From positions 1 to 63,208 of the forward strand of contig JAJZZE010000025.1 in assembly GCA_021797735.1 (NCBI GenBank): a stretch of 63,208 bases of DNA. The letters run 5' to 3'. The notes under the pieces were generated by a model. That model searched no databases. It saw only the letters and a list, made by a program, of their open reading frames with translations, and was not told the DNA's origin. The translations under genes and the position numbers were made by a program. Source of the DNA: Thermoplasmata archaeon. Lineage in GTDB: Archaea; Thermoplasmatota; Thermoplasmata; Thermoplasmatales; Thermoplasmataceae. Below are positions 20,722 through 23,341 of the stretch, in pieces. Numbering within the stretch: position 1 is the first letter of the stretch; each line of letters begins with the position of its first letter.

Positions 20722-22101
20722 TTAGGATTTGTTTAATCTTTTTATTATTTTTTCTATATCGTCAAAATCTATATTGATGCATTCATCACTTTTTGTTTTA
20801 AATGACTTTGCTATAACCATGAAAAATTCCCCATTCCTTTTTATCTTAACATTCATAGATTTATATTTTAAGTCCCTGAATATTTTTATACCATCAACAT
20901 CTGATGAAAACTTTATTTCAATAAATACAACATCATTTTCATCGTTTATTGCGACTCCATCAATTTCAACATCCTTATGCCAGAATTTGTTTATATGAAA
21001 GTTTTTAATGGGCACTGGTATAATATGTTTTGAAATCATGTTTAATACAAGTCTCTCAAATGTATGCCCATAAAACGTATTTAAATTCCCATCAATTCTA
21101 TTATAAACAGCATCTATATTTCCGATCTCCAAATCTGATATATTCGGGTATACAAATTTATAATAAAAATTTAAAAAATAGTCATTAACTTCATAAATAC
21201 CGCGTCTTTTCTGATTTAAGGGGATAATATATCTAATAAACCTGCTTGATATAAGTGTTTCTAAATATTTCGATATATTTCCAGAGTCGATATGCAATGA
21301 ATTCTGTAAGTCACCGTATGTATTATGTCCTTCAGAAATTTTTTTTAATATTAATTCATAAACTCTTGGCTCACGGAATTCCTCCTTTAAAAGTATCCTG
21401 GGCTCCTCGTATAGAATTTCACCCTTTGTGAATATCTTATTTTTTATATTCCATTCAATACTTTTATTTTTATCGATCAGTGATAGATAAAATGGTATAT
21501 TTCCAAATATTGAGTTTATCTTTACAATATCTTCAAAATTATTATTATAAAAATATGATATTAGATTTATATCAAAACCAGTTATTTCAATACTTCCGGT
21601 TCTTCTACCATAAAGTGGTGATTTAAAATTTAAAATTTCATTTTCCATCATACTGATACTTGACCCAGAAAAAATGATAAATAAATTGGAATTTGTTATT
21701 AATTCATCATATATTTTCTGGAATACAGATAAAACTCCCCTGCTTATTGATATTAAATATGGTATTTCATCGAATACTATTATGATTTTTTCATTTTTTA
21801 TTTCATCTATAAAATATTTGAACAACGTAAATAAATCCACATCCAGGTTTAAAAAATATGATTTACCGGTAATGTTATAAAATTCTAATTTTAGGTAATT
21901 GACATTTTCCAGTAGACTATCTTCAGTACATAGGTGGTATAATGCCTTCTTCTTATTTATAAATTCCTTTATAAGTTCAGTTTTGCCGGCCCTTCTCCTC
22001 CCATAAATTATTATTAATTGAGGTTTATTTTCTGTATATTTATTATTTAGGAAGTTCAATTCATATTTCCTGTTAATAAATTGTTGTAACATAATTATCA
22101 T
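20722..22101 (-). CDS. archaeal ATPase with C-terminal DUF234 nuclease-like domain
   Basis: A 459-residue protein of the archaeal P-loop ATPase/DUF234 family (STAND-like). Walker A is YGRRRAGKTELI (about residues 35-46), Walker B IIVFDEIPYL (about 108-117) and sensor FSGSSIS. A winged helix follows (LQNSLHIDSGNISKYLETL). The C-terminal domain reads HKDVEIDGVAINDENDVVFIE then IKFS, a D-x(n)-E-x-K pattern of a PD-(D/E)xK nuclease. Such genes are common in archaea, often multi-copy, and of unknown function; some are linked to mobile elements or defence. Start may be Met4 (22092). Divergent from another ATPase. Confidence 0.85.
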   Translation of the reverse strand: MIIMLQQFINRKYELNFLNNKYTENKPQLIIIYGRRRAGKTELIKEFINKKKALYHLCTEDSLLENVNYLKLEFYNITGKSYFLNLDVDLFTLFKYFIDEIKNEKIIIVFDEIPYLISISRGVLSVFQKIYDELITNSNLFIIFSGSSISMMENEILNFKSPLYGRRTGSIEITGFDINLISYFYNNNFEDIVKINSIFGNIPFYLSLIDKNKSIEWNIKNKIFTKGEILYEEPRILLKEEFREPRVYELILKKISEGHNTYGDLQNSLHIDSGNISKYLETLISSRFIRYIIPLNQKRRGIYEVNDYFLNFYYKFVYPNISDLEIGNIDAVYNRIDGNLNTFYGHTFERLVLNMISKHIIPVPIKNFHINKFWHKDVEIDGVAINDENDVVFIEIKFSSDVDGIKIFRDLKYKSMNVKIKRNGEFFMVIAKSFKTKSDECINIDFDDIEKIIKRLNKS

Positions 22102-22270
22102 AATTTGATTACAGTATAATATAAAAATTTATTTGTGCATAAAATGGGGATAAAACAGTACACATAATATTTAGCCCCCCTTTTGTTTAACTGGTTTACA
22201 TAAAAATTTTTATTTATTTTTATGATGTGCAGTAATAAAAGATAATGTACAGATTGAGGGATCATCCGTT

Positions 22271-22338
22271 AATTATTTAAATAATTATAATATTTACTTT
22301 GGGGGGCAAAGTACTTTGGGGGGCAAAGTAATATTTAC
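22271..22338 (+). promoter_or_regulatory. palindromic promoter plus tandem 17-bp palindromes over the TTG start
   Basis: AATTATTT-AAATAATT at 22271-22286 is a perfect 16-bp palindrome that contains the TTTAAATA TATA box. It is followed by two head-to-tail copies of ACTTTG-GGGGG-CAAAGT (22296-22312 and 22313-22329), each itself an inverted repeat, and both are bracketed by TAATATTTAC (22288-22297, 22329-22338). The second copy contains the gene's TTG start; the first opens a 10-codon ORF that ends at TAA 22329-22331. Confidence 0.6.
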
Positions 22339-23341
22339 AGAAAAACCAAGAAATGATATAGATAATATATTCGATCGGGACGATGAGATTAATACAATAA
22401 AAAAGGTAATAGATACAGGTGACTGGCTTGCCATACTTGGTCCTAGAATGATCGGTAAAACCAGCATTGCAAAGGCCATTTTAAATGAATATAAAAAAGA
22501 ATATAATCCAATTTATATAGACTTTACTGGAATAAAGAGTTACAATGACGCCATCAATAAAATATTTCATGCAATACCCAGAAGCTTAATAGATAAACTT
22601 AAAGACAATTTCGCGGGTGTAGGGATCAATATCATGGGCAATTCAATAACATTCAATAGGAGATTCAAAGACACAGATATAATAAAAGCATTGCTCACAT
22701 TATTGAAAAAATCTATAATAGTCCTGGATGAATTCCAGGAACTATCCTTTGGAGTAAACCATTTTATAAACATGCTGCATAATATCATGATGGAAAATAA
22801 TAATACAGTATTTATTTTCACGGGTTCTTCCATCGGGGTGATGAAAACCCTGCTGGAACAGAAGGGAAAAAGTCCACTGGCAGGTCGTAATCCAGTGAAT
22901 ATTGTCCTCAATCCCTGGAATAGAACGACCGCAATGACCTATTTAAGGACAGGATTAGCCAGTTGCAATGTATCTGTTAACGATCGGGAATTAGGTGAAG
23001 TAATAGATGAAACAGGTACAATAACAGGTTGGTTGAATTTCTATGGAAAACGCCGGTGTATAGAAAATCACGAGGATGCGCTGAGAGATAGCCTTGATGA
23101 AGCTATCAACGTTGCAAAATATGAAATAGGCAATATAGTAGGACAATCAAAATGGAGAAAAACTGTTTTAAAGATGATGGCTTTCGGATCTAATTATAAC
23201 ACTATGTTACAGGAATCACACGTTTCCACATCTACATTATCAAATTTTCTGCACAGACTTGAAAAATTATATGTAATCCGGCACGACGGTAAGGCATACT
23301 ATGTCGTAGATAATATTTACAGAAAAGCCATACTAGTGTAA
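22316..23341 (+). CDS. archaeal AAA/STAND-like ATPase
   Basis: A 341-residue P-loop ATPase. Walker A is ILGPRMIGKTSIAKA (about residues 40-54), Walker B SIIVLDEFQEL (about 133-143), sensor IFTGSSIGVM, and the C-terminal 80 residues form a winged helix (MLQESHVSTSTLSNFLHRLEKL). It belongs to the same broad family as the gene at 20722 but lacks the nuclease domain. No ATG is available near the N-terminus; TTG 22316 in the second palindrome (M-G-G-K-V-I-F) is the only start that keeps the FDRDDEINTI segment found in such ATPases. Codon use resembles neighbours, GC slightly higher. Confidence 0.78.
   Translation: MGGKVIFTEKPRNDIDNIFDRDDEINTIKKVIDTGDWLAILGPRMIGKTSIAKAILNEYKKEYNPIYIDFTGIKSYNDAINKIFHAIPRSLIDKLKDNFAGVGINIMGNSITFNRRFKDTDIIKALLTLLKKSIIVLDEFQELSFGVNHFINMLHNIMMENNNTVFIFTGSSIGVMKTLLEQKGKSPLAGRNPVNIVLNPWNRTTAMTYLRTGLASCNVSVNDRELGEVIDETGTITGWLNFYGKRRCIENHEDALRDSLDEAINVAKYEIGNIVGQSKWRKTVLKMMAFGSNYNTMLQESHVSTSTLSNFLHRLEKLYVIRHDGKAYYVVDNIYRKAILV

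Follow-up and report, generated by a model that had tools for sequence, protein, structure and literature searches.

Type II toxin–antitoxin modules and other autorepressors carry short repeated dyads over their own promoters, and these dyads are bound by the product of the same locus. The locus described here, which lies in a 63,208-nucleotide stretch of DNA from a Thermoplasmata archaeon (the window), resembles the tandem operators of type II toxin–antitoxin modules in having dyads repeated over its own promoter. It differs in encoding a single AAA+/STAND-like ATPase, and in that each subfamily of this ATPase has dyads of its own, set at a near-fixed pitch.

Among proteins of known structure, SSO1545 (PDB 2FNA) and the Pyrococcus protein 2QEN are like the window family, with sequence homology over the full length (family profile, E 1e-90 and 6e-88, respectively). 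SSO1545 has been placed among the Cdc6/Orc1-like structural homologues (PMC4599002), and no description of an operator or a DNA target of SSO1545 or 2QEN was found in the literature search. The ATPase domain of IniR, a mycobacterial transcription regulator, was compared with SSO1545 by its authors, who described IniR as a promoter-binding activator (PMC5760070). IniR activates other genes and has a separate SdiA-like C-terminal DNA-binding domain, and the likeness implies no membership in the same family. The divergent neighbour of the window gene strongly matches PADLOC PDC-S27 (Table 1), whereas the window gene itself matches PDC-S01 only weakly (1.5e-9) and over 42 residues; the defence role of both PADLOC families is a candidate one, and operators are not part of their definition. 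Archaea commonly encode PF01637 proteins, for which the literature search found no established role. The same search, which was thin on subscription papers, found no description of operators of the present kind, and their novelty is thus unproven.

The window gene encodes a member of the PF01637 ATPase_2 family, as indicated by its Pfam match (59.9 bits, with the cut-off at 33.2; E 4.2e-16), by conserved Walker A (GPRMIGKTS) and Walker B (VLDEFQ) motifs and by its full-length relation to the solved archaeal members. The encoded proteins look like winged-helix-turn-helix ATPases: the C-terminus of a paralogue (L017) matches the MCM_C winged HTH above cut-off (E 8.6e-10), that of an orthologue (L009) matches HTH_45 below cut-off (4e-4), and the window protein itself gives weak HTH matches (E 0.09). 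An AlphaFold2 model built from two sequences was too poor for use (pLDDT 49.6). The gene family is patchily distributed and in places plasmid-borne, and a scan of viral contigs (query A1) returned no relatives. Several PF01637 matches within the genus are interrupted by stop codons (L082, G005:C1:340587-341096; G008:C46:41401-41913; G005:C1:985076-985537), which suggests frequent loss.

Table 1. Features of the ATPase gene start and its surroundings in the window.
Feature	Position	Strand	Remarks
Divergent neighbour gene, ATPase_2 + DUF234 protein	20722-22101	-	Strong PADLOC PDC-S27 match, E 6.5e-52
AT palindrome TAATTATTTAAATAATTA	22270-22287	.	18 bp; holds TATA-like TTTAAATA at 22276-22283
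Flanking repeat TAATATTTAC, left copy	22288-22297	+	Brackets the dyad pair
Putative operator dyad 1	22296-22312	.	ACTTTG-GGGGG-CAAAGT; kept in both orthologues as ACTTTG-TAGGG-CAAAGT
Leader ORF, 10 codons	22299-22331	+	Orthologues without it; probably incidental
G6 core of dyad 1	22301-22306	+	9 nt ahead of start codon; possible Shine-Dalgarno tract
Putative operator dyad 2	22313-22329	.	ACTTTG-GGGGG-CAAAGT; includes start codon; orthologues AGTATG-(G/T)GGGG-CAAAGT, ATG at same codon
PF01637 ATPase_2 gene, 341 aa	22316-23341	+	TTG start; full-length relative of PDB 2FNA (SSO1545) and 2QEN
Flanking repeat TAATATTTAC, right copy	22329-22338	+	Brackets the dyad pair; within coding region
C-terminal region of winged-helix-turn-helix character	23156-23338	+	Proposed DNA-binding part; matches in relatives

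The start region of the ATPase gene holds two exact copies of ACTTTGGGGGGCAAAGT, each a perfect 17-bp palindrome, at a pitch of 17 bp (Table 1). This arrangement, the position of the TTG start codon within the second copy and the bracketing repeat TAATATTTAC are all as given in the preliminary description; the AT palindrome upstream, reported there as 16 bp, is present and measures 18 bp. From typical archaeal spacing, transcription is predicted to start near 22303-22308, about 26 bp past the TATA-like element and inside dyad 1. The occurrence of such symmetric sites over the promoter and gene start is far beyond chance: with up to three mismatches allowed, 0.18 matches would be expected in the window, against the two exact tandem copies found, and the site has the maximum tandem-dyad score of 24 (shuffles: mean 15.8, maximum 18). 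Throughout the 1.97-Mb genome, only these two copies match when the arms are allowed zero or one mismatch, and a regulon of the window operator was rejected on that ground. Facing the divergent gene, ATAATATTTAGCCCCCC at 22164-22180 is an inverted partial copy (82%) of dyad 2 and its flank, and is perhaps a degenerate third site. In other genera, matches to the window motif were rejected as unrelated, one lying apparently inside a coding sequence and two in tRNA-like regions; the latter two (CTTTGGGGGGTAAAG; L004 and L006 of genome G047) apparently belong to intron-like inserts.

Two genomes of the same genus, one of them also public as a Thermoplasmata MAG, have orthologues of the window ATPase that are 69% identical to it. 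Their start regions read ACTTTGTAGGGCAAAGT-AGTATGGGGGGCAAAGT and ACTTTGTAGGGCAAAGT-AGTATGTGGGGCAAAGT, with ATG exactly at the position of the window's TTG, indicating that the start codon of the window gene is correctly assigned; a related TTATTTAA element lies at the position of the window's TATA-like region in both. All three orthologues have two dyad copies at a 17-bp pitch, and their cores (GGGGG, TAGGG and TGGGG) differ by substitution at constant length. Dyad 2 is a perfect palindrome in the window because the start codon there is TTG, whereas the ATG of the orthologues costs two arm pairs. For the window's own orthologue pairs, operator identity is 0.85-0.88 and flank identity 0.62-0.74; the operator is thus conserved above the flanking DNA.

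Tandem dyads recur across the family. The region -90..+20 was scored in 73 PF01637 clusters made at 50% identity, in 1825 shuffles and in 186 control genes (other genes from the window and from the same loci). As the clusters were collected at the same time as the pattern came into view, the following statistics are descriptive and do not represent a blind test: a score of at least 20 was found in 42 of the 73 clusters, 62 shuffles (3.4%) and 18 control genes, and a score of at least 22 in 20 clusters, three shuffles (0.16%) and one control gene (Fisher p for clusters versus control genes, 4e-15 and 2e-11, respectively). In the remaining 31 clusters no dyad pair was detectable, although start codons were assigned by rule and some of these misses may reflect wrong starts; they include the divergent neighbour's own cluster, which has no clear tandem dyad (score 18 versus a null of 17.3). 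The pitch is mostly 15-20 bp, and most commonly 15 bp. It is exactly 15 bp in 24 of the 42 dyad-bearing clusters; among the high scorers of the other two sets, this pitch occurs in 8 of 54 shuffles (p 2e-5) and in 5 of 18 control genes (p 0.05).

The geometry is common to the family and the arm sequences are private to each subfamily. In the same genomes, one paralogue has, between TTTAAATA and the ATG, two copies of AGTAATA-GGGGG-TATTACT at 20 bp, and another has ATCGGTACCGAT twice at 17 bp, ending at the ATG. Distant relatives have, among others, GTAATG-gggg-CATTAC, ACTTACC-agg-GGTAAGT and CTTATG-ccc/ggg-CATAAG. Three tandem dyads, instead of two, occur in some relatives, such as L127 (G331:C96) and L130 (G284:C131); the triplets are TTACC-attc-GGTAA in three copies and three dyads of the TAACC-aaaaa-GTTA type. 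Unexpectedly, the top-scoring "other" genes in the fetched loci mostly belong to a second PF01637 branch, ATPase_2 + DUF234, exemplified by TACTTTAAAGTA twice at 15 bp. Plasmid-borne homologues beyond the phylum, which share about 30% identity with the divergent neighbour gene, also carry tandem dyads. A plasmid homologue of M. jannaschii has ATAATTtcAATTAT/ATAATTatAATTAT at 15 bp, a Natrinema homologue has ATTATCgcGATAAT and, after it, a second dyad with the ATG inside it at its end, and a Haladaptatus homologue has TACTTCAAAGTA/TACTTCAGAGTA. Tandem dyads are further found in bacterial homologues of Cetobacterium, Fusobacteria bacterium ZRK30 and Vescimonas (a clostridium), whereas a Bacteroides homologue gave no tandem-dyad score.

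Operator sequences follow the proteins encoded downstream. At protein identities of 20-30, 50-60, 60-70 and 70-80%, operator identity is 0.52 (background), 0.70, 0.80 and 0.92, whereas the identity of flanks of equal length stays at 0.50-0.54 up to 80% protein identity; the comparison suggests that operator and gene evolve and move together. When 24-residue protein windows of the DUF234 branch were ranked by how well they predict operator identity, the putative recognition-helix segment came first (rho 0.36). This signal is modest and only suggestive: the next, unrelated protein window reaches rho 0.32, and with 50-residue windows the recognition-helix peak is not unique. The recognition-helix signal is absent from the short branch, which includes the window gene, and operator specificity was not localised in the protein there.

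These features are probably best explained if the dyads form an autoregulatory DNA operator that is bound by the encoded ATPase and that extends over the predicted transcription start and the start codon. Autoregulation by the ATPase is favoured because the operator tracks the protein, because the genome has no other near-match to the window operator, because relatives match winged HTH models at the C-terminus and because the protein aligns with 2FNA and 2QEN. Binding of the dyads by a separate host regulator is unlikely. Such a regulator would fit the weakness of the HTH evidence in the window protein, and the AT-rich dyads of some subfamilies do resemble common regulator sites; yet the window operator is found at one gene only, operators differ among paralogues of a single genome, and across phyla they track ATPase identity while flanks do not, which would require co-inheritance of the regulator each time. 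In addition, most of the sampled plasmid loci are without an adjacent annotated regulator gene, one Natrialba locus having an HTH gene upstream. A role as a recombination, integration or replication/partition site of a mobile ATPase gene, rather than in expression control, would be in keeping with a patchy and in places plasmid-borne family whose operator travels with the gene. This role is highly improbable, however, given that the dyads occur only at the 5' end, fixed to the promoter and start codon, and that none are present at the 3' end of the window gene.

Of the modes of control raised in the preliminary description, a protein that blocks initiation is the one favoured by the present comparisons, and those acting through RNA structure or repeat instability fare poorly. 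It is very unlikely that the palindromes serve as mRNA hairpins with a GGGGG loop that gate ribosome access, possibly in a protein-bound form. In favour of a hairpin are the covariation of the arms from subfamily to subfamily, the G core, which in the window's branch is found mostly on the coding strand, and the position of the start codon within the second dyad; nevertheless, the fold of the predicted mRNA 5' end is no more stable than that of shuffles (z = -0.62), many relatives carry dyads with gaps of 0 to 2 that are unable to form good hairpins (e.g., the loopless ATCGGTACCGAT and TACTTTAAAGTA), the dyads of many relatives lie upstream of the likely transcription start, and one locus (G218C2) combines a CCC distal core with a GGG proximal core. 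A phase-variable switch, in which a change in copy number or G-run length would toggle the gene or a leader ORF, is scarcely credible: direct repeats and a G6 run are slippage-prone in principle, but copy number, pitch and core length are the same in the three orthologues, and the leader ORF is destroyed in both of the others. The 10-codon frame itself exists as previously described (L(M)GGKVLWGAK-stop). As the first copy reads TTG-TAG in both orthologues, this ORF is probably incidental, and a regulatory leader was rejected.

Genes of the window's branch often have a G-tract as the start-proximal dyad core, 6-9 nt ahead of the start codon, and this G-rich spacer may double as a Shine-Dalgarno-like, ribosome-binding tract. 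With the genome's own 16S rRNA tail (GGATCACCTCC), the calculated pairing energy is -9.0 kcal/mol for the G6 core in the window; five related clusters give -8.4 to -11.3, against a median of -2.2 for window genes. The two close orthologues (-2.9) give no support to this role, which is therefore not secure for the window gene. A ribosome-binding tract in the spacer near the start would account for the freedom of distal cores to read CCC or GTAC.

In the autoregulatory reading, the core promoter and translation start of this solitary gene would be merged with a two-dyad DNA operator, and the gene product would be an AAA+/STAND-like ATPase carrying a winged helix at its C-terminus. Binding to its own operator would be by a dimer or higher oligomer of the ATPase, perhaps dependent on its nucleotide state. 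At dyad 1 the bound ATPase would cover the transcription start, and at dyad 2 the start-codon region, and it would thereby repress its own transcription; repression is the expected sign of control because the dyads sit over the start codon and the predicted start of transcription. Each subfamily would have a private operator evolving and moving with its gene. As over half of the related gene groups show the same layout in a version of their own, the dyads are most likely a switch by which the ATPase family down-regulates itself.

More tentatively, the widespread solitary AAA+/STAND-like ATPases of PF01637 in archaea and bacteria, some of which are candidate defence proteins, might in general be self-targeting DNA-binding switches, with co-evolving tandem-dyad operators that belong to each subfamily, keep a near-fixed pitch and move with the gene; one branch would pack operator, ribosome-binding tract and start codon into 34 bp. 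If so, each of dozens of PF01637 members would gain a ready DNA ligand in its gene-private operator, making DNA binding, nucleotide dependence and autoregulation directly testable, and these operators would offer a natural set of co-evolved protein–DNA pairs. A candidate defence family spanning archaea and bacteria would then be under a common kind of self-control.
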